Shown here in pieces: positions 49,056 through 64,000 of a stretch of DNA of 64,000 nt (positions within the stretch are counted from its first letter, which is position 1; every line of letters starts with the position of its first letter). The notes under the pieces were generated by a model. It was not told the origin of the DNA. It ran no database searches and saw nothing but the letters and a program-made list of their open reading frames with translations. Both the position numbers and the translations under genes were made by a program. This stretch comes from Saprospiraceae bacterium (GTDB lineage: Bacteria; Bacteroidota; Bacteroidia; Chitinophagales; Saprospiraceae), in contig JAIYAV010000233.1 in assembly GCA_027488855.1 (NCBI GenBank), positions 34,375 to 98,374 of the forward strand, in the 5' to 3' direction.

Positions 49056-50442
49056 CAAGCATACTTCACCTGTAGAAGAGGGCTATACAAATGGGGGAAC
49101 TTCTTTGTTGCAAGAAGCGCTACGCTTATGTGCCCTTTTTGAAAAAACCAAGAATGATACATTGCGGTGTCAGCTCAATCAATTAGGAGACAAGTTAACA
49201 CGCACTACACTTTTTTCTGTGCTTGATTTTAGGTTATTGTTGGGTAAATCTGCTTTGATTATTGTTTTGATTGAGTTGGCGCAAATCAATCAAAATCCTA
49301 TTTGGCTAAAAAAAGCAAAGCTCATTCTTGCAGATGTAGAGCCATTTTTATTAGGCGCATCGACAGACAATTCCATTGAACAGGGTCAACTTGGCTTGTT
49401 TTTAGCTGTACTGGCCCTTTATGAAGCTGATCCCAGTGAAAGAGAGTATCTACAAAATATCCTGGAAAAAATAATGAATTTCATTTTGCAGCAAATACAT
49501 ATTTCAACTCAAGGCAAAATACGCATTCGCGAAAAGTGGGAAAAGCAGTTGTGGTGGATCATTAATGCCCTGCGCTCAAATCAAGAAAATCCACAACAAA
49601 AAAAAATTCAAGAGTTATCAGAATTGGGCGTTTTCGGTGGGCGAAAAAGGCGGACTTTCCACTCCGAGAAATCAAGTCTAGGACATGGTATTCGAGCTCA
49701 TTTGGGAGATGACCTGGCTACTCAATTTTTTATTAAACGCCTACTCTCTTTTTCCCTTAGATCAAAAACTTTTTTTGCGCGCCTGCCCATATTTAACAGG
49801 TTTTTAACTTCTCATCTTTTCTTCAATTTTCCCACAACGCTACATGAAATAGGAAAAGAAAACCAAACTTATTTGGTTCAACTTTTCATGGAACCCTATA
49901 CTCATCAATTAAGAGTGTTGGAGTTGGACCTAAAACAGAAATTTCATGCTAAAAGCCTTGCTGTGGATGCTTTTAGGTGGGAGAAGGTTTGTTTGAAGGT
50001 AAAATATTCTCAACCGAAAATTACTTTTGAGGATCAACTAGAGGCTATTCGCAAGCTAGAGTACCTAACGCTGCAAAATGATGATGAAATCATTGCACAA
50101 GTTTATCGGCTCAATGCTCAAGCAAGGTTCAAGAGCTTTTACTACAATTGGAATGACTATGACACGATCTTAAATAAAAAGGACGCCACGCTACCTAATT
50201 CATTTCAATTTCATTATCTCTTTTTGCCCGTGTGGTACGATCAGGGCGTAGAGGTTATTCAAATATCTGGTTTGTACAGCTTACTTTATTCCTTTAAGGC
50301 ACCTAATTCAGCTATTGAAATATTTGAATCAGCTAATTTGGTTTACAAACACAAAGATCAAGGACAAATCTTCAAACAGCAGTTTGTTGACTTTTTACTT
50401 CGGGCAGTGCATCTGGGAGCGCTTCGATGCACATCAATCTAA
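49045..50442 (+). CDS. Unrecognised lanthipeptide-cluster protein with weak LanC-like N-terminal half
   Basis: 465 aa, no signal peptide, no clear membrane helix. I do not recognise the family. Residues ~55-145 contain helical repeats reminiscent of LanC barrels ('LLGKSALIIVLIELAQINQN', 'NSIEQGQLGLFLAVLALYEA'), but the zinc ligands of LanC (WCYG, CHG) are absent. The C-terminal half ('FHYLFLPVWYDQGVEVIQIS' and nearby) matches nothing I know. Its ATG overlaps the glycosyltransferase gene by 11 bp and its stop overlaps the stop of the convergent LanB gene by 4 bp. It may be a scaffold, an immunity protein or a degenerate cyclase. Confidence 0.6.
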   Translation: MSFSKHTSPVEEGYTNGGTSLLQEALRLCALFEKTKNDTLRCQLNQLGDKLTRTTLFSVLDFRLLLGKSALIIVLIELAQINQNPIWLKKAKLILADVEPFLLGASTDNSIEQGQLGLFLAVLALYEADPSEREYLQNILEKIMNFILQQIHISTQGKIRIREKWEKQLWWIINALRSNQENPQQKKIQELSELGVFGGRKRRTFHSEKSSLGHGIRAHLGDDLATQFFIKRLLSFSLRSKTFFARLPIFNRFLTSHLFFNFPTTLHEIGKENQTYLVQLFMEPYTHQLRVLELDLKQKFHAKSLAVDAFRWEKVCLKVKYSQPKITFEDQLEAIRKLEYLTLQNDDEIIAQVYRLNAQARFKSFYYNWNDYDTILNKKDATLPNSFQFHYLFLPVWYDQGVEVIQISGLYSLLYSFKAPNSAIEIFESANLVYKHKDQGQIFKQQFVDFLLRAVHLGALRCTSI

Positions 50443-53400
50443 ACCGAAGAACCTTGTTGGTGCTTTTCCTGGTAATCTTGATACAAACTATGCAGGAAAA
50501 CATATAGAATGAACTCATAGCCGCGCTGGTTGGCGGGAAACAATCGGTTAACCATCATGTGTATCAAACTGGAGCAAAGATTAGTTAAAATTGATTTATC
50601 GTTGCCCGTTTCGATGACCAGCTTGCTAATCGCCGGATAAAGAGAGTTCAGTTTTAATTTGACCTGCTTGAAAACATATTCGAAATCATCATTTTCTATA
50701 TTTTGAGGCATGAAGATGAAATTTTGGAAAACAGCCTTGTGTGTACTTAGTAACCCTAACTTGGTATTGAGCGCAGTCAATGTTGTGTTGAATTCACTTA
50801 GAAAACCATTACTTAGTGTCTCCAAAAAATTCAGTCGCTCTTTTGGCGTAAATTGAAAAGCAACCAAATATGTATTCATGGTGAGTAAACCATAGGCACA
50901 ACGCCTCATATAAGTATCCTCATCTTCATTGTGCAATAGAAAATTTAAAGCAGTTTTAGAGTCAACCCAAAAAATGTTTTCACAAAATTCTATATATTCA
51001 TTTTTATAGCGCTCAATTTCTCGATCGTAGCCATCTATCTGAATTTTCCATATTAATTTTTCTTCTTGTAAACTATGTAGCACAGGTGCCATAAATAGCA
51101 AGACTTTTGATAATTTTTCATCGCTTGTTAGTTTTATTCTTAATCTGATATGAAAATCAGGATCGTCATATCGAATGAAAAACCAGCTCTTAATGTCCTG
51201 ATTATCGGTAAGTTCTTGAAGCTTAGGGAGGAGGTTTTCGGCCAGTATAGCGTCGGCTGAATCAATACCACAATATATTTTGTAGTAAAGCCATTCTGAG
51301 CCTGTTAAGAAAGAGCGCTTAACGAGTGGAGCAGAGTCCTTCGAGTGCATGGGTAGCCGGATCTCTCTACGCTCGTTCCTGTTAAATACGATGAATAGCT
51401 CATGTGTATAGTTATTTCCTTCTACGTCTTGCACCAAAACATGTTCGGTATTATTAAATAAAAATTCGCGTAAAACTATCCTACTTTTGGTCTTGATTTC
51501 ATTGAGAAAAGTATTGAATATAATCCGGTTATTGGTGTCAATTAACAATTGATTATCCCCCTCTACCAATAAAAATCTCTCTGGGAGTTTCCATTTCTGG
51601 CGCCAAGTGGAAATACATTCGTTCAATTCTGCACCCTTTGCTTCCAAGAGCACCTTAAAATCATTAGAGGATAGATTCCAAAATGCTGTAGACAGTAATA
51701 AATTGTGATATTTAACTCTTGGAAAAAACTTAAACAGGAAAGAGCACCCCCCCCAATTGAAACCAATTGATCTTCTTATCCCTTGATATTGTAAATCACA
51801 TAGGAATTCGTAGATCGGTAAGGAATTAAATCCAAAATTATGTGCATTGGCCATTCGGGGTAATATCCTCTTATTTAGGCGTTTAGAACGAAGAGTAACT
51901 TCATTGTTCACTACCGAGACCATCAGGTCATCTAAAGGTAATTGAAATTCTTCGGGGACGCTACTTTTTGCTAAATATGGAATTTCATAGGATCGAATTA
52001 TCTTCCTCATTAACACATTACCCGTACGCGATTCAGGTAAATGCACAATTTCAGCCAGAATAATTTCTTCAGGGTATAGACTTTGTTCTTTATCTGTAAT
52101 CTCTTTTACCCAGCTCTCGATTGCTGGATTTAGGGTTGTGAATCGACCAAGCATGTTAGGTGCGCAACCGTTAATGCTTTCAATAAAAAATTGAGGATGC
52201 TTCTGATTTATATCAAGTTGGTAAACTTGACCAAAAACACCAATAGAATCAGGAATATTCTGAAAATTAGTTGGAAATTTTTTCAACTCATCGTCAAAAA
52301 GCTCTATTTCAAAAAGATCATTTTTATGAGCATCAAGTAATTTATGGGATAAAAATTTTTCAACTGCATCCAAAGATATCCTTGGATCATTGAAATTACT
52401 TTGCTTTTGATCAATGCCTGCAAGGGCGTTCACAATCAAGGGGTGAAACCCAACTTTATGTTTATCATTTTCAGAATAGCCTACACCAAGCTCCACATCC
52501 AAAGCTATATTCAGGGGAACTTCCTTGGTATCATAACGGGCACTGAATCGTTGTGCAAATTGCTTAAGTTTATAATCTTGTACCTGTGGTACCAATCGAC
52601 TTAATGCTTCTACTCCTCTACGGATTGTACCTGCAAAGCGTTTATCTAGTTGATTTTCAATGAAATTTCGATGATAATCTAATTGTAATAATTGACTCTT
52701 CTCAAAGGCTATGCCCAATGGCTTGATTAATTCTTCGATATGAATATAATCATCGGCTGAAAAAGCTCTTTGATTAGCGTCCAGAGAAAGCAAAGCATTT
52801 TTTAAATGTTCTAAAGTCCTTAAATTATCCAATACTACTGGCGATTGATTTATGGCTTCTAATTTTGAGATCAACCGATCCAGCATTTCTTCCCCCGTAG
52901 TATTGCCATCTAGCTCTGAAATCAAAACTTGTGAAGCAACCAATTCTTCTACAAAAGCTATAGCATCTTCTAAATCGATCTCATCATCGACCAATGAAAT
53001 TGCCAGTTCCTGAAGCTTACCTCCAGTTTTGGCTACATCTAATACCTTGGATAAATAAATAGAATGATCTACAGAGGTAATTTGATGAACCCTTTTTTTG
53101 CCTTTATAAAAGTATTCAATATACCTTAACTTTCCACCAATAAGGTATATGCTACTATTAGGAAAAAATAACAAATGCGGCTGGATTTCTGGATGCGAAG
53201 ACAGTTGCTGCGCCAGTTCACACAAAAAAGTCATGTCCGGCCTGGTATGTCGTTGGATATCCGTAGGTTTTTTTAGTTGTATCTGGTTACTTTTACCCCA
53301 TTTTCCCAAAGAACATCCTGCGAAAAGACCAAAAGGGGTGCATCGAGAAGACATCCGGATTAGATAACGCATCAGGGCAAAAACTAGGCTTTTTTCCTTT

Positions 53401-53624
53401 TTACTAGATAATTCGCTTCCATCCTGCCACGCTTTCATTTTCTCATAAAGGGAGGAAGATGCAATGTATAAAGCCTCTTGAATGGTCGGATTTTGGAAAA
53501 CTTCTTTTAAATAAGCAACTTGTTCATTATAGTTTTCAAACTTTCCCATCTGATTCAAGTACTTATCAAAAGGCAGCCTAGGGGTACGGATCAGGAACCG
53601 TTCATTCAAAGAATAATTTTGCAT
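50439..53624 (-). CDS. lanB: Lantibiotic dehydratase LanB, full length
   Basis: 1061 aa. The N-terminal glutamylation domain has 'RYLIRMSSRCTPFGLFAGCS' (residues ~88-107), the standard 'R.S.R.TPFGLFAG' motif, and later 'RMANAHNFGFNSLPIYEFLC'. The C-terminal ~290 residues are the SpaB_C/thiopeptide-type elimination domain ('GSEWLYYKIYCGIDSADAIL', 'WFFIRYDDPDFHIRLRIKL'). Both halves are in one chain, as in NisB. It dehydrates Ser/Thr of the precursor core using glutamyl-tRNA. It lies 29 bp after lanC on the same strand. The 3' end touches the convergent 465-aa gene. Confidence 0.95.
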   Translation of the reverse strand: MQNYSLNERFLIRTPRLPFDKYLNQMGKFENYNEQVAYLKEVFQNPTIQEALYIASSSLYEKMKAWQDGSELSSKKEKSLVFALMRYLIRMSSRCTPFGLFAGCSLGKWGKSNQIQLKKPTDIQRHTRPDMTFLCELAQQLSSHPEIQPHLLFFPNSSIYLIGGKLRYIEYFYKGKKRVHQITSVDHSIYLSKVLDVAKTGGKLQELAISLVDDEIDLEDAIAFVEELVASQVLISELDGNTTGEEMLDRLISKLEAINQSPVVLDNLRTLEHLKNALLSLDANQRAFSADDYIHIEELIKPLGIAFEKSQLLQLDYHRNFIENQLDKRFAGTIRRGVEALSRLVPQVQDYKLKQFAQRFSARYDTKEVPLNIALDVELGVGYSENDKHKVGFHPLIVNALAGIDQKQSNFNDPRISLDAVEKFLSHKLLDAHKNDLFEIELFDDELKKFPTNFQNIPDSIGVFGQVYQLDINQKHPQFFIESINGCAPNMLGRFTTLNPAIESWVKEITDKEQSLYPEEIILAEIVHLPESRTGNVLMRKIIRSYEIPYLAKSSVPEEFQLPLDDLMVSVVNNEVTLRSKRLNKRILPRMANAHNFGFNSLPIYEFLCDLQYQGIRRSIGFNWGGCSFLFKFFPRVKYHNLLLSTAFWNLSSNDFKVLLEAKGAELNECISTWRQKWKLPERFLLVEGDNQLLIDTNNRIIFNTFLNEIKTKSRIVLREFLFNNTEHVLVQDVEGNNYTHELFIVFNRNERREIRLPMHSKDSAPLVKRSFLTGSEWLYYKIYCGIDSADAILAENLLPKLQELTDNQDIKSWFFIRYDDPDFHIRLRIKLTSDEKLSKVLLFMAPVLHSLQEEKLIWKIQIDGYDREIERYKNEYIEFCENIFWVDSKTALNFLLHNEDEDTYMRRCAYGLLTMNTYLVAFQFTPKERLNFLETLSNGFLSEFNTTLTALNTKLGLLSTHKAVFQNFIFMPQNIENDDFEYVFKQVKLKLNSLYPAISKLVIETGNDKSILTNLCSSLIHMMVNRLFPANQRGYEFILYVFLHSLYQDYQEKHQQGSSV

Positions 53625-53653
53625 AAACTATTTTTTTGAAAATGGTAAACAAA

Positions 53654-54868
53654 TCATCTAACTAGGAACATTTCATCCCAGAAATTGCTCTTTAAAAGCG
53701 GAGCGGCTAAAACCAAGCCTACCCCTGCAATACCTTCAAGGGCACTGTAACTGTCCAACCATTCGTCTTTCAAAGTACCTCCATACATTTTGTATCCACC
53801 GGGGCCTTCAGGATGTCTGGCGTGATCGAATGTTTGTTGCATCCAAAATAAATCAGCGTCATTAAATTCGACTAGTCCTGTTTTTTGATACAAAAATCTA
53901 TAAACATAGGCCAGCCCTACTGAACCGTGACAAAAACCCGCATCGTATACTTGCGTATAATTAAGTGATCGTCGTTGAGTGGTGATAAGGGCTACTTCTT
54001 TGGCGATTTTCTGCCATTCATTGCGCTTGAAGTTTTCGCCAGCGATCCATAGTGAAAGACTGATACCAAGGTCTCCATAACACCAAGCTAATCGGCTTCC
54101 ATAATACTCAGGGCTTCCCTCCTTAGAGAAAGAGGGGAAACAATAGGGCAAATAAGTTTCTTCTAATCTTTGTGCAATAATGTAATTATAAATCCCATCT
54201 CCCAGTTTTTCGCATAACTCTGGGGCAATACCCGCCTGGTAAATTTTCGATATGATCACCAAAAGGCTACTTGATCCATGAGATAAACTGATATTTGAAC
54301 CTAACATAAAAGGATCAACGGATATAATCGTGTCCCATTTCAAAGAATTAGCATCACCCTTTTGAGCATTTTCGTATAAAACGCTCAAAAATTGAATCAA
54401 GGCCGGAGCAATTTTATCATATTTGTATTTGGTTCTATGGGTCAAATAGAGCGCTATCCCTGAAGCACCATGTAAGAAGTCATAATTACCAGAATGCACA
54501 TCAGAAAGCATACTGCGAATCAAAAAATCATCTAATTCATCAAGAAACTCATCGGCGTCAACATCGAGGTATCCATGCTCCACCATTTTGAGCGTACCCC
54601 AACAAATCCCCGCCAGTCCCTTACAAAAGGTAGTATAAAAATAGCCCTCATCAATCAATTTAAAAACCTGTTCCATTTTGGACAAACCAGCAGAATAAAA
54701 GTACTCGTTGTCACTATCCTTTCCATAGCATAACAACAGCATAGCCTCTCCAGTCAAGCCTGACTGTAGTCCTAAATCCTCTTCTAAGGGGCTTTCAATT
54801 AGTGATTTACAAATATTAGATAATATTTGTTTGTGAAGGCTAGCTCCTTTGATTTGACTGGCTTCCAT
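53654..54868 (-). CDS. lanC: Lanthionine synthetase C (LanC cyclase)
   Basis: 404 aa from ATG 54868 (MEASQIKGASLHKQIL); the ORF track uses a TTG 24 bp earlier. Repeated helical-barrel motifs include 'LQSGLTGEAMLLLCYG', 'FCKGLAGICWGTL' and 'FLHGASGIALYLTHR'. Zinc-site motifs are intact: 'AWCYGDLGISLSLW' near residue 276 and 'GFCHGSVGLAYVYRF' near 322. It catalyses Michael-type addition of Cys thiols to dehydrated residues to form (methyl)lanthionine rings. It is the first gene of the lanC-lanB operon, divergent from the transporter genes. Confidence 0.95.
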   Translation of the reverse strand: MEASQIKGASLHKQILSNICKSLIESPLEEDLGLQSGLTGEAMLLLCYGKDSDNEYFYSAGLSKMEQVFKLIDEGYFYTTFCKGLAGICWGTLKMVEHGYLDVDADEFLDELDDFLIRSMLSDVHSGNYDFLHGASGIALYLTHRTKYKYDKIAPALIQFLSVLYENAQKGDANSLKWDTIISVDPFMLGSNISLSHGSSSLLVIISKIYQAGIAPELCEKLGDGIYNYIIAQRLEETYLPYCFPSFSKEGSPEYYGSRLAWCYGDLGISLSLWIAGENFKRNEWQKIAKEVALITTQRRSLNYTQVYDAGFCHGSVGLAYVYRFLYQKTGLVEFNDADLFWMQQTFDHARHPEGPGGYKMYGGTLKDEWLDSYSALEGIAGVGLVLAAPLLKSNFWDEMFLVR

Positions 54869-54917
54869 CTTTTTTAATTTTAACAAGGGCAATATACTGT
54901 TTTTCTACTTGGTTTCG

Positions 54918-54925
54918 TATCTTTG
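54918..54925 (+). promoter_or_regulatory. Putative -7 promoter element of the exporter genes
   Basis: TATCTTTG on the plus strand, 45 bp before the lanT ATG, in the ~100-bp divergent region between lanC and lanT. No well-placed TTTG is seen upstream. Confidence 0.5.
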
Positions 54926-54970
54926 AAAGAAATTAATAGGCCAATTAAAGCCCAGGTAACAAAATAAAAC

Positions 54971-57211
54971 ATGCGTTATCATACCTTCCCTTTTTTCCAA
55001 CAATATGATGAGATGGATTGCGGTCCCACCTGCCTAAAAATGATCACAGCATACTATGGTAAAAATTTTAGTCTTCCTACCCTCAGACAAATCTGTTCCT
55101 TTGGGCGAAGCGGTGTTTCAATGTTAGGAATAAGCCAAGCTGCTGAAAAATTAGGTTTCCGATCCCTAGGTGTTGTTGTGCCTTATGAAGCAGAGTTGCC
55201 AGATCAAGCATCCATTATGGACATAGCTTACCCTTGCATAGCTTTCTGGAAAAAAAACCACTTTGTAATTTTACTCAAAGCCAATCACAAATACGCTTGG
55301 ATTGCTGATCCGGCAGCCGGAAAACTTAAATTGCCAAGGAAAGTATTTGAAAAAAATTGGTCTACTTATCCAGGAGGAGGAGCACTCCTATTGCTGGAGC
55401 CTACACCAGACTTTTATTCACAAGATGACCCAACTGCTGATACTAAACAGTTCATCCATGTGTTGAAATACCTAATCCCTTATCGTGCACTGCTGATTCA
55501 GGTAGGTATTGGGATGCTGGTTGGTCTTGTTTTTCAATTGATTACCCCTTTTTTAACTCAAAACATCATTGATGTAGGTATTGAAAACCGAGATTTTGGG
55601 TTCATAACATTAATGGTCTTGGGCCAGTTTATCATTTTTGTGAGCCAAGCCTTAATGTCCTTTATCCAGACTAGAATTTTTCTTCAGATTGGATCACGAC
55701 TTAATTTGGCGATTGTTACTGATTTTTTAATCAAACTGATGAAATTGCCCCTTGGCTTTTTTGATTCCAAAACTACGGGGGACATTTTACAGCGGGTCCG
55801 AGACCAGGAAAGAATTGAATCGTTTTTAAGTGGCTCCACCATAAGTATAATTCTATCTGTAGTCAATTTTATAGTGTTTAGTTTTATTTTGATTTCTTAC
55901 CAATGGAGCATTTTTTTGGTTTTTTTGATATCCGGAACCCTCTATTTTGCTTGGGTGCTCTCTTTTCTAAAAATCAGAAAACGTTTAGATTATATCTCTT
56001 TTCAAAATCATTCCGAAACGCAGAACATTTTAATCGAATTGGTACAAGGAATGCAGGAAATCAAATTGCAAGGCTCGGAACGCAAACGTCGGTGGAATTG
56101 GGTGCATCAACAATCCGCATTGTTCCGAATTAATTTGCGCAATTTGGGTGTCGACCAACTTCAATCAGCTGGTGCCATGTTCATCAATCAAGGGAAAGAT
56201 ATTCTAATCACTTTCATCTCAGCAAAAGCGGTCATTGATGGTGATATGAGCCTAGGGATGATGTCTGCAACAGTTTATATTGTTGGACAACTCAATGGCC
56301 CGCTTCAGCAATTCATTGGATTCATCACCGCGGCGCAAAGTGCTAAAATTAGCTTTGAACGCCTTCGTGAAATTCAGGACCAGCCGACCGAAGAAGAAGT
56401 ATTAACAGGAGCACAGCCTGAAAAAACTGGGACCCAAAACCTTCTTCCTTTTGAAATGTTCACAGAAATTCCGTTGAAGGATATCGTCATCCAAAACCTA
56501 TTTTTTAAGTATGATAATTTATCTAAGCATGTTTTAAAAAACATCAACATGGTTATCCCCCAGGGTAAAATAACTGCTATTGTAGGCGAAAGTGGTAGTG
56601 GAAAAACCACTTTAGTAAAAATGTTATTGGGTTTTTATTTCCCAACTCAGGGAACCATTTCAATTGGGAACACACCCTTAACTCAATACAATCCGGCTTC
56701 ATGGCGGAAAAAGTGCGGGGTAGTTTTGCAAGATGGTTTTATTTTTTCTGATACAATCGCCAACAACATTGCAGAGTCTTCAGATGCAGTAAATTTACCC
56801 TTGCTTTCGCATGCGATGCAAGTTGCAAATATTCAAGAGTTTGTCGAATCGATTCCCCAAGGTTATCATACCAAAATTGGCACGCAGGGTGTTGGTTTAA
56901 GTCAGGGCCAAAGGCAACGCATTCTGATCGCTAGAGCAGTTTATAAGGATCCAGATTACATTTTTCTTGATGAAGCCACTAATGCACTAGATGCAAACAA
57001 TGAACAGATCATTATTAACAGTTTACAGCGATTTTATGAAAACAAAACAGTTCTGGTGATTGCCCATCGCTTAAGTACAGTTAAAAACGCAGATCAAATC
57101 ATCGTATTAGATCGAGGCGAAATAGTTGAGTCAGGCAATCATGCTCAGTTAATTCGTAACCAAAGCAAGTATTATGAATTGGTAAAGAACCAATTAGAAC
57201 TAGGGAGCTAA
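54971..57211 (+). CDS. lanT: Peptidase-containing ABC exporter (C39, LanT-like)
   Basis: 746 aa. Residues ~1-135 are a C39 peptidase: catalytic Cys in 'YDEMDCGPTCLKMITAYYG' (Cys17), His in 'FWKKNHFVILLKANH' and Asp in 'WIADPAAG'. Residues ~160-460 are a six-helix exporter membrane domain ('LIQVGIGMLVGLVFQLITPF', 'FQNHSETQNILIELVQGMQE'). Residues ~500-740 are the ATPase: Walker A 'VGESGSGKTTLVKMLLG', signature 'LSQGQRQRILIARAVY', Walker B 'YIFLDEATNALD'. It removes the leader after Gly-Gly and exports the modified peptide. The HlyD gene follows 14 bp on. Confidence 0.95.
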   Translation: MRYHTFPFFQQYDEMDCGPTCLKMITAYYGKNFSLPTLRQICSFGRSGVSMLGISQAAEKLGFRSLGVVVPYEAELPDQASIMDIAYPCIAFWKKNHFVILLKANHKYAWIADPAAGKLKLPRKVFEKNWSTYPGGGALLLLEPTPDFYSQDDPTADTKQFIHVLKYLIPYRALLIQVGIGMLVGLVFQLITPFLTQNIIDVGIENRDFGFITLMVLGQFIIFVSQALMSFIQTRIFLQIGSRLNLAIVTDFLIKLMKLPLGFFDSKTTGDILQRVRDQERIESFLSGSTISIILSVVNFIVFSFILISYQWSIFLVFLISGTLYFAWVLSFLKIRKRLDYISFQNHSETQNILIELVQGMQEIKLQGSERKRRWNWVHQQSALFRINLRNLGVDQLQSAGAMFINQGKDILITFISAKAVIDGDMSLGMMSATVYIVGQLNGPLQQFIGFITAAQSAKISFERLREIQDQPTEEEVLTGAQPEKTGTQNLLPFEMFTEIPLKDIVIQNLFFKYDNLSKHVLKNINMVIPQGKITAIVGESGSGKTTLVKMLLGFYFPTQGTISIGNTPLTQYNPASWRKKCGVVLQDGFIFSDTIANNIAESSDAVNLPLLSHAMQVANIQEFVESIPQGYHTKIGTQGVGLSQGQRQRILIARAVYKDPDYIFLDEATNALDANNEQIIINSLQRFYENKTVLVIAHRLSTVKNADQIIVLDRGEIVESGNHAQLIRNQSKYYELVKNQLELGS

Positions 57212-57225
57212 AACAAAGATAAATT

Positions 57226-58509
57226 ATGTCCAAAGAAGGGTACAATATCGAAGACAACTCCTTGGAACAAATGGAAGTGAAATACTTGATGGGTAATCCG
57301 CCATCTTGGCTGCACTATTTCGGTATTTCAATCATTGCAGTATTTGTCGCACTAGTATTAATCTTGAGCGCTATTATTCGCTACCCAGATACTGTAATTG
57401 CAAAAATTTTTCTGGTCACACAAAACCCACCCACGAGACTTATTGCCCAGCGGGCGGGTAGAATTGAAAAATTGTTGGTTCAAACCAATGATACGATCGA
57501 AGCAGGGGAGATTTTGGGGGTTTACGAGCATGTCGGAAATTGGAGAGATGTGCTTGAACTGGAGCTGATTGTTCAGGGTTCAATGGAAGATGGAAAGTTC
57601 TTATTATCCCCAAAGAAATTAAATGTTGGGAGCCTCCAGAGTGCCTATTCTATCTTATCCCAAGACATTCAGTCGTATCATTTGCTATTATCGTCCATGG
57701 ATTTAAACCACAACATAAAAAAATTAAACAGCCAAATTCAGGAATTAACAAAGTTAAATGGGAGTTTACAGCAGCAACAATTTTTTTATCAGGATGAATT
57801 AGCCTTGGCAAAAAGGGATTATGAACGCCAATATCAACTCATGCAAAATAAAGTTATTGCTGAAAGAGAACTCGAAAATAGCAAGTCAAAAATTTTACAA
57901 ATGGAGCGCCAAGCTAAGTCCTTAGAAAGCCAGGTTTACACCAACGAACTACAAATTCGCCAAATTGAATATCAAATTGATAATTTAAGCCAAACAAAGG
58001 TGCTTGACTTAGAAAATCGAAGAATACAGATAAGGGAAAGTATGGCCAAATTGCTAAGCGAAATTGAAGCTTGGCGAAAGAATAATTTGATTATTGCGCC
58101 AAATTCTGGCAGAGTATCAACTCAAAAAATTTGGTCTGATGACCAAAATATTTCCGTTGGCGAAGAAATCCTTGGGATTCTCCCAATTCAAAAATCCAAG
58201 ATAATTGGCAAGGCGCTGATCTCCATTGCACTTTCTGGAAAAGTAGCCTCAGGAATGAAAGTTTTAATTAAATTAGACAATTATCCTTACCGAGAATTTG
58301 GAATGCTTGAGGGAAAAGTAAGTAAAATTGCATTATTACCTCAAAATGAATCCTATGCCCTGGATGTTGAGATTCCAAACGGCTTAGTCACAACCTATGG
58401 GAAAAAGGTTATCTTTAAACAAGAGATGCAAGGCTCCGCAAAAATAATTACAGAAAACCGGAGTATCCTTGAACGTATATTTGAGCGACTTTTGGCTCGA
58501 TTTCAATAG
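57226..58509 (+). CDS. HlyD-family periplasmic adaptor protein
   Basis: 427 aa. One N-terminal membrane helix ('ISIIAVFVALVLILSAIIRY', residues ~33-52). A biotinyl-lipoyl-like half-motif 'LIAQRAGRIEKLLVQTNDTI' is followed by 'AGEILGVYE', then a long coiled-coil hairpin (~130-270, 'LNSQIQELTKLNGSLQQQQF'). The second half-motif is 'NNLIIAPNSGRVSTQKIW', with a beta-barrel after it. It links the C39 exporter to an outer membrane channel for type I secretion of the lanthipeptide. No TolC-like gene is linked, so one from elsewhere must serve. Confidence 0.93.
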   Translation: MSKEGYNIEDNSLEQMEVKYLMGNPPSWLHYFGISIIAVFVALVLILSAIIRYPDTVIAKIFLVTQNPPTRLIAQRAGRIEKLLVQTNDTIEAGEILGVYEHVGNWRDVLELELIVQGSMEDGKFLLSPKKLNVGSLQSAYSILSQDIQSYHLLLSSMDLNHNIKKLNSQIQELTKLNGSLQQQQFFYQDELALAKRDYERQYQLMQNKVIAERELENSKSKILQMERQAKSLESQVYTNELQIRQIEYQIDNLSQTKVLDLENRRIQIRESMAKLLSEIEAWRKNNLIIAPNSGRVSTQKIWSDDQNISVGEEILGILPIQKSKIIGKALISIALSGKVASGMKVLIKLDNYPYREFGMLEGKVSKIALLPQNESYALDVEIPNGLVTTYGKKVIFKQEMQGSAKIITENRSILERIFERLLARFQ

Positions 58510-59519: not shown

Positions 59520-60362
59520 CTAAGGGCAAGTTGTCAGCCGTGGTCCTTTGAAAGGATACATCCTGCTGATGAAACTCTTGTCTTCAGGGGAAAGCAGGTA
59601 ATTCCAGCGTACTTCAAATCCATCCAAGGTCAATTGTTTGGGGACAGAATAATGCATAATGGAAAGCGGATCATAACGACAGAACTGGGTTTGTGTGCTG
59701 CTGTATTTGCGGAACAAATTCTGATCCACATCCTGCCGACTCCAATCCTGGGTTTGGGCATAATAGGCATAAACCTTCTCTACATCCCACTGGATATTTT
59801 GCAGCGGGTTCTGGTGCTCGTGAATCAAACCCAGGGCATGGCCAAACTCGTGGAGCGTAGTGCGCCGGATTTCATAATCAGGCGTCCGGTCGGTAAACCA
59901 GCCAAAATTCATCGTTTTGGACAAAGAATCCAGGTACAAGGCATCCCGTCCCATGTACGACCAGGAACCTTCGCGGGGGCTCAGGCCGATGCGGATTTCC
60001 GCTTTGCCCTGGCGTACAAATTGCAGGCGAACATTGGCGTACAATTCCCATTCCCGTGCTGCTTTTTCGATGCGCAGGCGGAGCGTATTGCTCAAACTAT
60101 CCATGAATTTTACGCGAATCACTTGCCCTACGTTCCACAATTTAGTGCGGAGAGCTGCCGTGCGCAGGTGGGCATCACCTTCCAGGTTTTTTTCAACACA
60201 GCTATGAACGATGGAAGGATCGACATTGTCTTCCGCTAGTGTTTGTTCCAGCAAATCGCTGATGTCCTGATCAGGGTCGGGCATGATTTCACAACTTAAG
60301 GCTCCCAATCCAAGAAGCAGGGTACATATCCAGAGGTAGTGCGCAGCAATTTGCTTTTTCAT
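59520..60362 (-). CDS. Astacin-like (M12A) zinc metalloprotease lipoprotein
   Basis: 280 aa. The lipoprotein signal 'LLLGLGALSCEIMPDPDQ' puts the lipobox Cys near residue 24. The catalytic zinc motif 'TTLHEFGHALGLIHEHQNP' (HExxHxxGxxHE, near residue 167) is complete, and the Met-turn is seen in 'DPLSIMHYSVPKQL' (S-x-MHY), as in astacins. The N-terminal domain has 'IRVKFMDSLSNTLRLRIEKA' and 'RLQFVRQGKAEIRIGLSP'. It would cut proteins at the cell surface or in the periplasm. It is a single-gene unit flanked by a divergent T9SS-sorted protein gene. Confidence 0.9.
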   Translation of the reverse strand: MKKQIAAHYLWICTLLLGLGALSCEIMPDPDQDISDLLEQTLAEDNVDPSIVHSCVEKNLEGDAHLRTAALRTKLWNVGQVIRVKFMDSLSNTLRLRIEKAAREWELYANVRLQFVRQGKAEIRIGLSPREGSWSYMGRDALYLDSLSKTMNFGWFTDRTPDYEIRRTTLHEFGHALGLIHEHQNPLQNIQWDVEKVYAYYAQTQDWSRQDVDQNLFRKYSSTQTQFCRYDPLSIMHYSVPKQLTLDGFEVRWNYLLSPEDKSFISRMYPFKGPRLTTCP

Positions 60363-60550: not shown

Positions 60551-61795
60551 ATGCGCCAAATCCTTACACTCTTGATCGCCCTATTCTCCCTCAGCCTCCA
60601 GGCCCAAAAAGACTGCTCCATCCAGCCTTCCAGCCACACGCCTCTCATCGATTTACAAGGCCAAAACTATCGAGGTTACCTCGGCGGCCTGTACGCCAAT
60701 GGCAAAAACGAACGCCCTGCTGCCCAACTCCGCACGATCCAGCAGCAAATCGCCCAGGTAAAACCCCTGAATCTCCTGGGACAAAGTGATGTCAAGGGAA
60801 AAATCGTGATGATCGGAGTAGGTGCCTCCAACCCCCGCACTGAATTTGAACGCTTCAAACAAAAAGCGCTGGCTTTTGCGGGCCTCAATCCCAATTTGGT
60901 GCTGATCAACACCTGCATCGGCGGCCAGGGGGTACAAAAAATGAACGATGCCGCCGACAATTATTGGCAAAGTGCTACCAATACCCTAAAAAGCAGCGGC
61001 CTGAGCGACAAGCAGGTACAACTCGCCTGGGTGGAAACCGACAATACCCAAACTGGTGACACCCTTTTCCCCTGCGCACCCCTGCAACTGATGGAGGATT
61101 ACCGCCTACTCCTGGAAGTCCTGCACGACAAATACCCCAATCTGAAAGTGGTGTATTTTTCAGCTCGGGCTTTTTCCGGCTATGCCACTCCAGTGCCGGG
61201 TGGGGTAGGGAAGGGGCTACTTTTTCCCCGGGATTATTACTCGGGTTGGGCGATCAAATGGTTGATCGACAATGCGGATCAACAAAAGCCAGGCTACATT
61301 ACCACGGGCACACAATCCAATATTCCCCACGTCACCTGGGGTTCTTACCACTGGAGCAATGCCAGTTTGCCGCGCAGTGATGGCTTTAAACTGGATTGCC
61401 AGAGCGATGTGGGTGAGGATGGCCTGCACCTGACCAGCCTGGGAGAAGATAAAATTGGGCAGTTGATGTTTGACTATTTTCAAAAAGACCCCACGGCGCA
61501 GGCCTGGTTTTTGAAATCAACTACCACGCCGACCTTTTCGATTACAAGTGCATTGCCCTACATTCAGATTTACCCCAATCCTGTTGCGGAATCCTTACAC
61601 TTGCGCTTGGCGCAGCCACTATCGGAAGTCACTCTGACCTTGCGCAACTTGCAAGGCATCAGCGTATGGCAAAAACAGGGAGACTTGAGCACTGAAAATG
61701 AAATCAGTGATTTGCCGAACCTGCCTGCTGGGATTTACCTGCTGGAATGCCGTTGGGAGCAGGAGCGGCGGGTGCTTAAGGTGGTGAAAGGCTAA
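60551..61795 (+). CDS. Secreted protein with T9SS type A sorting domain, possibly SGNH-hydrolase-like
   Basis: 414 aa with a signal peptide (cleavage near 'LQAQ', residue 19). The body has 'GKIVMIGVGASNPRTEFERF', 'PNLVLINTCIGGQGVQKMND' and 'DGLHLTSLGEDKIGQLMFDY'. Gly-rich 'CIGGQG' and 'D..H....G' are loosely like blocks of SGNH hydrolases, but the nucleophile GDS is absent, so enzymatic function is unsure. The C-terminal ~75 residues are a type A sorting domain ('PYIQIYPNPVAESLHLRLAQ', 'LPAGIYLLECRW'). It is surface-delivered by T9SS. It converges with the small GldM-like gene with a 4-bp overlap. Confidence 0.8.
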   Translation: MRQILTLLIALFSLSLQAQKDCSIQPSSHTPLIDLQGQNYRGYLGGLYANGKNERPAAQLRTIQQQIAQVKPLNLLGQSDVKGKIVMIGVGASNPRTEFERFKQKALAFAGLNPNLVLINTCIGGQGVQKMNDAADNYWQSATNTLKSSGLSDKQVQLAWVETDNTQTGDTLFPCAPLQLMEDYRLLLEVLHDKYPNLKVVYFSARAFSGYATPVPGGVGKGLLFPRDYYSGWAIKWLIDNADQQKPGYITTGTQSNIPHVTWGSYHWSNASLPRSDGFKLDCQSDVGEDGLHLTSLGEDKIGQLMFDYFQKDPTAQAWFLKSTTTPTFSITSALPYIQIYPNPVAESLHLRLAQPLSEVTLTLRNLQGISVWQKQGDLSTENEISDLPNLPAGIYLLECRWEQERRVLKVVKG

Positions 61796-62202
61796 TCCGC
61801 TACCACCGTCAAGCCTAAAGATCCCCACTTGACTCCCTGAGCACCCCCTTCACAATCCAGGCGGATGTTGTCAAAAATCAGGCGGTCGCCTACTTTGGCC
61901 ATACTGATCAGCTGTTGAGTACCCGCGTTTATTTGCGCGCCAGGATTATTGTAGCCTATCGAATCCTGTTTTTTTCGTAGCAAAAAAAAATTAAAACCCC
62001 GCACCTGACAGCCTGTTTGGTATTTGAAGCCTGGTGCGGACTGGTCCAATACTTTTAACTTTTGTAAGGCGGAAAAAGTGATGTCCGCTTCGACGGTAGC
62101 GACAGGCAAGGTGAGTCTGCTGTAATTCACGGCTGGGAATATCAGGAAAATGAAGCCCAGGCAAAGCATGGAATGACGGAGTAGTTGGAGTGGGTTGAGC
62201 AT
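61792..62202 (-). CDS. Small GldM C-terminal-like domain protein
   Basis: 136 aa with an N-terminal hydrophobic signal ('LLRHSMLCLGFIFLIFPAVN'). The body aligns by eye with the last ~90 residues of the M56 protein upstream: 'GCQVRGFNFFLLRKKQDSIG' against 'KCEILGFNCILIPREKDPIQ', and 'VGDRLIFDNIRLDCEGG' against 'VNDQIIFDNIRAKCPGD'. This is the fourth-domain type found at the C-terminus of GldM, the T9SS/gliding motor protein. It lies 93 bp after the M56 gene, in the same direction, with a 13-bp hairpin between them. Probably a duplicated, free-standing partner domain. Confidence 0.7.
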   Translation of the reverse strand: MLNPLQLLRHSMLCLGFIFLIFPAVNYSRLTLPVATVEADITFSALQKLKVLDQSAPGFKYQTGCQVRGFNFFLLRKKQDSIGYNNPGAQINAGTQQLISMAKVGDRLIFDNIRLDCEGGAQGVKWGSLGLTVVAD

Positions 62203-62295: not shown

Positions 62296-64000
62296 CTATT
62301 CCTTTTTCTCTGGGTCGGCGACGACTTTGAAAGTCATGTTATTGATTTTGCGGCCTTTTTCATCTCCCGGGCATTTGGCCCGAATGTTGTCAAAAATGAT
62401 CTGGTCATTTACATTAATGGCCTGAATCAAATCAAGCGCCTTAGGAAGAAAGGCTCCGCCTGGGTTTGACAACTGTATTGGATCTTTTTCTCGGGGAATT
62501 AAGATACAGTTGAATCCCAAGATTTCACACTTGACATTAGCATAATCGTTGGAATATGCTGGGGGAAGCTTAGGTTCAATTCCTTTGCTCGACCGAATTG
62601 TGGATACGGGGATACTTCCACCAATGTAATCCACGCCACTCAAGGTAGCCACAGGATCAGGGAGTATTGCCAGAAACTCAACATCCCAATAGTAATCAGG
62701 CGTTGTAACCCTAATGACCATCTTGCCCGTTTGCTTGGCGTAAGTTTTGAACTGCCCCTTGCCCAAGTTTTCAAAAAAGAGATTTGCACTGCTTAGTTTG
62801 ATTTGTTCTGCTAGAACTCCTGAAACGGTGACGCTGATGGTGTTCTCACCCAAAAAAAGAGTTTTGTCGCGCAGCGTGATTATTTTTAACTCGGGTTGGC
62901 TGGGTTGCGCAGGTGGGGTGTCCACTGCAGCGGGATCAGGAATCGGCTTCACCCTAAACTCCACCTCCTGCCGATAATTCGGCGCCTCCACCAGGATTGT
63001 AGCCCTACCTGGCCTAACTGCTCTGACAATGTACTTCCCCTTTCCGGTTGCCGTCAACCGAACATCCCGGCTACTCACCTGCATCTGATCGGCAGGGACA
63101 CCTGAAATAGCCACACTAATGGGATTGTCCACGCCCATGTACAACACATTCATGCGGTCGGCAGCTACGCTGAGCACGGCATCGTTGTTGCTTTGGGGCA
63201 GGCTGTCAATAGTGCTGGTAGTTTTGCTTGGAGGAGGATTTTCTACAACTGTTATAGGGGAAATTGTTTCTGAATCTTTCACCAAGGGTTTGGTCGTCGT
63301 CTTTGTCGCTGCGGTTTTGGGTTTTTCTGGCAATACAAAAGTGGGCTTAACTTTGGATGCAGGTGTTTTCTTTTCAGCTTGCGCGACCGGAGCGAAAAGC
63401 CCCAAGGCAAGAAGCAACAAGGGCATCAACAAAACAGCACTGCTCCAGTGCTGGGTAAAAAGCTGAGGCTTGGTAGCAGTGGGGCCAGCTAGAATCTGGC
63501 GTACCCGCGTTGCAAAATGAGAAGCATGATTTTGAGCTTGCATAACCAAGGGGATATTTTGATGGTGATGTAATCGTTGTAAGTGCAGGAGCGCCTCGGC
63601 GTACACGAGTTGGTTGCAACCAGAAAGCAGAACCGCTTCGTCACAAGCTTCTTCGCGCAGTTCCTGGATGCGGCGGCTGAGTACCCAAATCAAAGGGTGA
63701 TAAAAAAAGAAGATTTGTAAAAGGGCCAGCAAAAGATTGACCAAAAAGTCGGCCCGCCGAATGTGGATCAACTCGTGGCGGATCAAAGCCTCCAACAAGG
63801 CAGGCGGCGTTTGGCAAAGCAAGGCCGCAGGCAGGATGACTACCGGGAAAAGATGTCCAAAAGTAAGCGGTGAATTCAGGGTGGAACTGCTGTAAAAGCC
63901 GATTTTTTGGCGCAAACCCAGACTCGTTTTCACTTGTTCAATCAGTTGCAAAACACGGGGGTCAACTATGCTGCTGCTTTTTCGCCGCAGCACAGTCAAG
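62296..64000 (-). CDS. M56/BlaR1-type membrane metallopeptidase with GldM-like C-terminal domains, 5' end outside window
   Basis: At least 567 codons; the true start is to the right of the window. The peptidase part has the zinc motif 'LIRHELIHIRRADFLVNLLL' (HExxH) near residue 90 of the visible part and 'RIQELREEACDEAVL', both typical of BlaR1/MecR1, then a membrane helix ('SAVLLMPLLLLALGLFAPVA', ~190-210). A Pro/Thr/Lys-rich linker follows. The periplasmic C-terminus holds two similar beta modules ('MNVLYMGVDNPISVAISGVP' and 'KTLFLGENTISVTVSGVLAE') and a final module with 'IIFDNIRAKCPG'. These match the layout of GldM periplasmic domains. It may sense something at the envelope and cleave a repressor; a BlaI-like gene would be expected just upstream, outside the window. 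Confidence 0.88.
   Translation of the reverse strand, partial: LTVLRRKSSSIVDPRVLQLIEQVKTSLGLRQKIGFYSSSTLNSPLTFGHLFPVVILPAALLCQTPPALLEALIRHELIHIRRADFLVNLLLALLQIFFFYHPLIWVLSRRIQELREEACDEAVLLSGCNQLVYAEALLHLQRLHHHQNIPLVMQAQNHASHFATRVRQILAGPTATKPQLFTQHWSSAVLLMPLLLLALGLFAPVAQAEKKTPASKVKPTFVLPEKPKTAATKTTTKPLVKDSETISPITVVENPPPSKTTSTIDSLPQSNNDAVLSVAADRMNVLYMGVDNPISVAISGVPADQMQVSSRDVRLTATGKGKYIVRAVRPGRATILVEAPNYRQEVEFRVKPIPDPAAVDTPPAQPSQPELKIITLRDKTLFLGENTISVTVSGVLAEQIKLSSANLFFENLGKGQFKTYAKQTGKMVIRVTTPDYYWDVEFLAILPDPVATLSGVDYIGGSIPVSTIRSSKGIEPKLPPAYSNDYANVKCEILGFNCILIPREKDPIQLSNPGGAFLPKALDLIQAINVNDQIIFDNIRAKCPGDEKGRKINNMTFKVVADPEKKE

Follow-up and report, generated by a model that had tools for sequence, protein, structure and literature searches.

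The locus at the very end of the window (the whole 64,000-nucleotide stretch of Saprospiraceae DNA that was analysed) raises the question of what kind of protein is made when an M56/BlaR1-type peptidase, a signalling protease, appears to be joined to pieces of GldM, the shaft of the T9SS and gliding machinery. A first-pass annotation had proposed such a fusion. We asked whether the fusion is real, whether a repressor gene and an operator accompany it, and what it could sense.

Domain content and recurrence of the fusion

The fusion gene (M56-D3-D3-D4) lies on the minus strand at 62296..63999, where 567 amino acids are present. Contig C242 (98374 bases) of the window genome, G000, ends at the window end with the frame still open. 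The window frame is therefore without about 140 N-terminal residues, and the TTG listed as its start is an artefact of this truncation. An intact orthologue in G199 has 707 amino acids from its likely start and is 92% identical over the shared part. According to Pfam, Peptidase_M56, a BlaR1-type gluzincin domain, covers residues 5-166 (63502..63987; 98.1 bits, cut-off 31) and conserves HELIH at 75-79, E116, D120 and R165. It is followed, on the same strand, by the last hydrophobic segment (residues about 184-205; 63385..63450), a Pro/Lys/Thr-rich linker (residues 204-271; 63187..63390; pLDDT <50), a first GldM D3 domain (residues 273-357; 62929..63183), a second, divergent D3 domain (residues 371-450; 62650..62889) and a GldM D4 domain (residues 446-561; 62317..62664), whose cysteines C491 and C543 are invariant across all 25 fusions described below. 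GldM_3rd matched twice, the better match being at residues 276-351 (74 bits against a cut-off of 25.2), and GldM_4th matched residues 447-559 (38.9 bits, cut-off 24.6). While D3 is found twice and D4 once, D1, D2 and the GldM transmembrane helix are absent, and the region with which GldM engages its motor, GldL, is thus missing from the fusion. By analogy with the topology of BlaR1, the D3-D4 modules are probably located outside the membrane.

Comparisons with the PDB led to the same assignment. With phmmer against the PDB, residues 269-358 of the window protein matched GldM (6ey4/6ys8, E~4e-7), and residues 30-138 matched BlaR1 (8exs, E=5e-6). An AlphaFold2 model of the window protein, built from 25 related fusions, had a mean pLDDT of 74 with confident beta modules (blocks mostly 84-96), and its first seven Foldseek matches in the PDB were all PorM/GldM (best E=1.9e-12). 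For the intact G199 orthologue, PorM/GldM again led (best E=7e-11) and the BlaR1 structures 8exp/8exs/8exr came next (E about 1e-6); this model contains the long N-terminal helices of a BlaR1-like membrane and protease fold, with a TM-score of 0.58 by target length against 8exr, a BlaR1 transmembrane-plus-protease entry. Because pTM was low (0.38 and 0.47), the arrangement of the domains is unreliable in both models. The proposed fusion of an M56/BlaR1-type peptidase to GldM modules was thus borne out by Pfam, phmmer and Foldseek, and the modules, which had been said to resemble GldM, are in fact true homologues of its D3 and D4 domains, PorM/GldM and no other fold being their top match.

The fusion shares with BlaR1/MecR1 the M56 gluzincin, flanking transmembrane helices and conserved zinc and Asp/Arg residues, and by our own matching its HELxH, Glu and Asp would correspond to H201/H205/E242/D246 of BlaR1 (PMC9834060). 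In contrast, BlaR1/MecR1 carry a penicillin-binding sensor where the fusion carries GldM D3-D4. The homology to M56 and BlaI could also be read as that of an ordinary beta-lactam sensor protein into which some unrelated, beta-rich segment has been inserted. However, no transpeptidase/PBP sensor was found in the window frame even at E<=10, the BlaR1 equivalog of NCBIfam gave 90 bits where 400 are required, and D3, D3 and D4 account for the C-terminal half; with its sensor domain absent, this reading was rejected and has practically no probability. The premise that a beta-lactam sensor is the normal C-terminus of BlaR1-type proteins was itself a poor guide, as M56 C-termini are varied both in this genome and in the family: other M56 proteins of Bacteroidota share the protease chassis but end in TonB_C, Plug, ankyrin, CarboxypepD_reg or a T9SS tail. 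For instance, M56 proteins of the window genome (L013:5530-7722, L017:160-1881) have either a pair of TonB_C domains followed by a T9SS sorting tail or a pair of Plug domains of the TonB-receptor type. With GldM/PorM (TIGR03517, PF21602, PF12080), the T9SS and gliding shaft, the fusion shares homologous domains in the same order, D3 then D4, and with the GldMs of the family the IPDP hinge and the D4 cysteines, whereas it scores 59 against TIGR03517 (180 required), has D3 duplicated, and is not encoded next to gldN.

When a profile of three fusions was used, full M56-D3-D4 fusions were found 25 times in 398 family genomes, in 8 genera, a count that is a lower bound, as scoring took three candidates per genome. 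None was found outside the family in a 396-genome sample of the phylum. A further fusion, with blaI and tandem operators, occurs in a MAG placed at the level of Bacteroidota (L210). Within the genus, the second D3 is limited to the window genome and G199. The zinc-protease motif HELxH is kept in 24 of the 25 fusions, and the downstream Glu and Asp in all of them. In the M56 tree, all 25 fall in one supported clade, together with ten M56 proteins that have other C-terminal modules, some of which have the same operator, whereas the tree of the short D3-D4 region requires about 7 label changes and has long branches. A single origin of the fusion is therefore neither demonstrated nor excluded by these differing pictures.

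The repressor gene and the candidate operator

The first-pass annotation had also suggested that a BlaI-type repressor gene be looked for upstream, and one was found by synteny on another contig of the same genome. The start of contig C213 (L014:1-270) lies inside an M56 gene and overlaps window positions 63731-64000 (270 bases) at 89% DNA identity. In G199, a single contig holds the upstream genes of C213 (SusC-like and SusD-like genes, by appearance, a Phosphodiest-family gene and blaI), the intact fusion and the downstream gene of C242; the order in G247 agrees at the fusion locus, although the contig ends soon after. Since the two flanks occur together in G199 and G247, C213 and C242 were placed at one locus, the join resting on synteny because the overlap is only 89% identical; this value suggests mixed strains or recent paralogues. 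A gene cut by a contig end, with its candidate 5' part at 89% identity on another contig, invites the explanation that the fusion is an assembly artefact or a chance event in a single genome. This was refuted by the recurrence of the architecture in 25 genomes, almost all of which have it whole inside a single contig (one of them 8.37 Mb), and the very slight probability that we leave to it concerns just the exact join of C213 and C242.

On C213, M56 is preceded by a gene (L014:682-1077) for a repressor of the Penicillinase_R family (79.8 bits, Pfam), and the 3' end of this gene overlaps the likely M56 start, as it does in close relatives. blaI was found near 22 of the 25 fusions, in one case with an intervening gene; it is missing beside the fusion in G196 and G245, and the third contig is too short to tell. 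The fusion of G196 (L131:5910-7535), with tandem operators directly upstream and no adjacent blaI, is also the one in which the first zinc histidine is changed (QELAH). The BlaR1 of S. aureus forms a domain-swapped dimer and cleaves BlaI itself, at the dipeptide Asn101-Phe102 (PMC9834060). This dipeptide aligns with [Gln/His]-Ala in the BlaI proteins of these loci and is not conserved; cleavage at the same bond therefore cannot be assumed, and inactivation of BlaI may differ.

Paired palindromes, TACGACAnnTGTCGTA, precede the blaI-M56 operon, and an alignment of four species contained two perfect copies of TACGACAAATGTCGTA, 52 bp apart, ahead of blaI. An adjacent repressor gene with palindromes ahead of it is also the arrangement of BlaR1/MecR1-BlaI/MecI, although the fusion operon is without a resistance gene. 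Genome-wide, the fusion operon is the only place with exact TACGACANNTGTCGTA in G000, G125, G199 and G247, and there is no exact copy anywhere in the genome of G018, a congener without the fusion. Exact putative operator sites were found at 20 of the 25 fusion loci and, beyond the four genomes of the genus, at the fusion locus in 16 of 21 fusion genomes. In G196 and G245 the tandem sites directly before the fusion are kept despite the loss of blaI from its side, and each genome has one more exact site at another M56/blaI locus. When 18 genomes in which no fusion was detected were searched, a single one, G014, contained a site; it adjoins blaI, and the contig also carries an M56 gene of the same clade. 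Sites were also present at two M56 loci (L214 and L220) at which no GldM domain was found. The occurrence of the operator at M56 relatives in which no GldM domain was found indicates that the fusions are only part of the M56/BlaI clade that has this circuit, and the operator appears to mark this clade, with one address in most genomes checked.

A wider BlaI regulon was not detected when two mismatches were allowed, as there were fewer matches than with a reversed-pattern control, and three extra weak sites that were inspected all lay inside long open frames. A copy with one mismatch (L185; G125:C1:4950318-4950333) is located some 65 bases before a permease-like gene. Because the four genomes of this genus that carry the operon have exact sites nowhere else, the predicted direct output of the switch is the operon itself. 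Together, the adjacent blaI and the private paired palindromes give the locus the look of a BlaI-M56 switch that is complete in itself and has taken its sensor from GldM.

Fused and free-standing GldM domains

If the fused D4 docked on the GldN/GldK ring, the protease could report whether this ring is free, assembled or coupled to GldLM. PorM D4 alone suffices for PorN binding in two-hybrid assays (PMC5790014), and a crosslink between PorM S460C and PorN A241C (PMC12421860) shows that a loop of D4 provides one of the contacts. The matching loop of the window D4 reads IPREKDPIQLSNPGGAF, compared with IPRRQDPIQVSNPGGAF in the genome's own GldM. Furthermore, every fusion-bearing genome except G377 has at least one further D4 match, mostly a full GldM; in the window genome the true GldM is on C140 (L018), and the next gene was taken for gldN by position and appearance. 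However, when 25 D4 domains of GldM were compared with 25 of fusions (related proteins), G19, A23, Q24, R53 and K78, which are present in 88-96% of the former, were kept in 4-20% of the latter, whereas the core positions P2, D55, G80 and R99 are at 92-100% in fusions, and the two cysteines (C40 and C92) are invariant in both sets. R53 sits in the loop that corresponds, via the PorM alignment, to the PorN contact, where S460 of PorM would presumably fall. Such surveillance of T9SS is thus possible but rather unlikely.

In D3 of the fusions, the MNVxYxGVxNP strand and the RVKxIPDP segment, the D3-D4 hinge, are largely kept; the dimer of PorM/GldM is formed by a strand swap of D2-D3 (PMC5790014). 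Our reading is that the parts for folding and pairing may have been kept in the fusions and the GldM-specific surface changed. With D3 strands and hinge kept and GldM-invariant D4 residues lost, the comparative evidence on T9SS sensing is mixed, and such sensing is unproven. There was no sign of recent gene conversion between the fusion and gldM of the same genome, as their DNA is similar over no more than some 75 bases, at about 76% identity. Within the genus, D4 diverges far more than the remaining protein: between the window protein and that of G247, identity is 90% for M56, 88% for D3 and 55% for D4.

A small gene downstream of the fusion (61792..62202, minus strand, 136 amino acids) encodes a hydrophobic N-terminus and a lone D4-like domain, which scored 22.5 bits (E=1.8e-4), just below the Pfam cut-off of 24.6; a 97% identical copy is in the same place in G247. 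At 5 of the 25 loci (G000, G247, G016, G022 and G136), the fusion has protease-free D3-D4 or D4 genes as neighbours. In G016, G022 and G136, which represent three genera, a D3-D4 copy groups in the tree as sister to the fusion next to it, as would be expected from local partial duplication. Stand-alone short GldM_4th proteins also occur outside M56 genes in the window genome, on C48 (L020:1498-2262) and C106 (L021:1471-2142), the former carrying GldM_3rd as well. These genes raise the question of whether the GldM-like part is an effector, such that D3-D4, fused or free and made in larger amount once induced, would pair with GldM or cap the ring and damp the T9SS motor. The exact operator sites at the operon only, the extra protease-free genes with sister copies in three genera, and the kept D3 strands and hinge are in agreement with this, but most fusions have no free-standing copy alongside, the protease residues kept in 24 of 25 would not be needed by an effector alone, and hydrophobic N-termini are the only sign of export of the small proteins, which makes an effector role doubtful.

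Convergent with the lone D4 gene is a gene for a 414-amino-acid protein with a T9SS C-terminal sorting domain (60551-61795), found in the same place in G199 and G247, and an Astacin (M12A)-like metalloprotease (59520-60362) is encoded near the fusion locus. Further away is a lanthipeptide-type cluster (50439-58509), consisting of a LanB-like dehydratase (50439-53624, minus strand), a LanC-like cyclase (53654-54892, minus strand), a C39-peptidase ABC exporter (54971-57211, plus strand) and an HlyD-like gene by appearance (57226-58509, plus strand).

Predicted mechanism and meaning

Sequence comparison establishes the domain content, the protease residues, the blaI gene, the paired palindromes and the recurrence in 8 genera, and on this basis the protein is probably the membrane half of a one-step switch of the BlaI/BlaR1 type, in which D3-D4, the outer end of GldM, has taken the place of the sensor. 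The D3-D4 part would be periplasmic and would pair through D3 as GldM does; given the swapped dimer of S. aureus BlaR1 and the swapping module in GldM D3, a paired sensor is plausible by analogy. A change in binding or pairing of D3-D4 would be passed across the membrane to the M56 domain, which would inactivate BlaI. BlaI would then leave the tandem operators and the operon would be made in larger amount, yielding the protease-sensor and, in some species, also protease-free GldM-domain proteins. As to the cue, we think most likely a pairing partner of the GldM type (GldM itself or the D3-D4/D4 proteins encoded alongside) or a periplasmic ligand that has changed, ahead of the GldN ring being read through a GldM surface that has stayed as it was. 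A more specific form of the switch, in which two genes make up a surveillance protease that reads the GldKLMN core via a duplicated piece of its shaft and answers with more GldM-like domains, is quite doubtful.

In the open-access literature, no paper was found that links GldM to M56/BlaR1, or one that links M56 to TonB in Bacteroidetes. BlaI-M56 circuits and GldM domains are already known; what is new is that the two are combined, under an operator of their own. Should the circuit operate as proposed, a signalling protease of the beta-lactam type would have been re-targeted, by a swap of its sensor for a part of a secretion motor, and two genes with a defined operator would make it possible to ask whether bacteria monitor the assembly of the T9SS core. 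The results also suggest that M56 serves in Bacteroidota as a general receptor chassis, whose C-termini have been taken repeatedly from machines of the envelope such as TonB, TonB receptors and T9SS.
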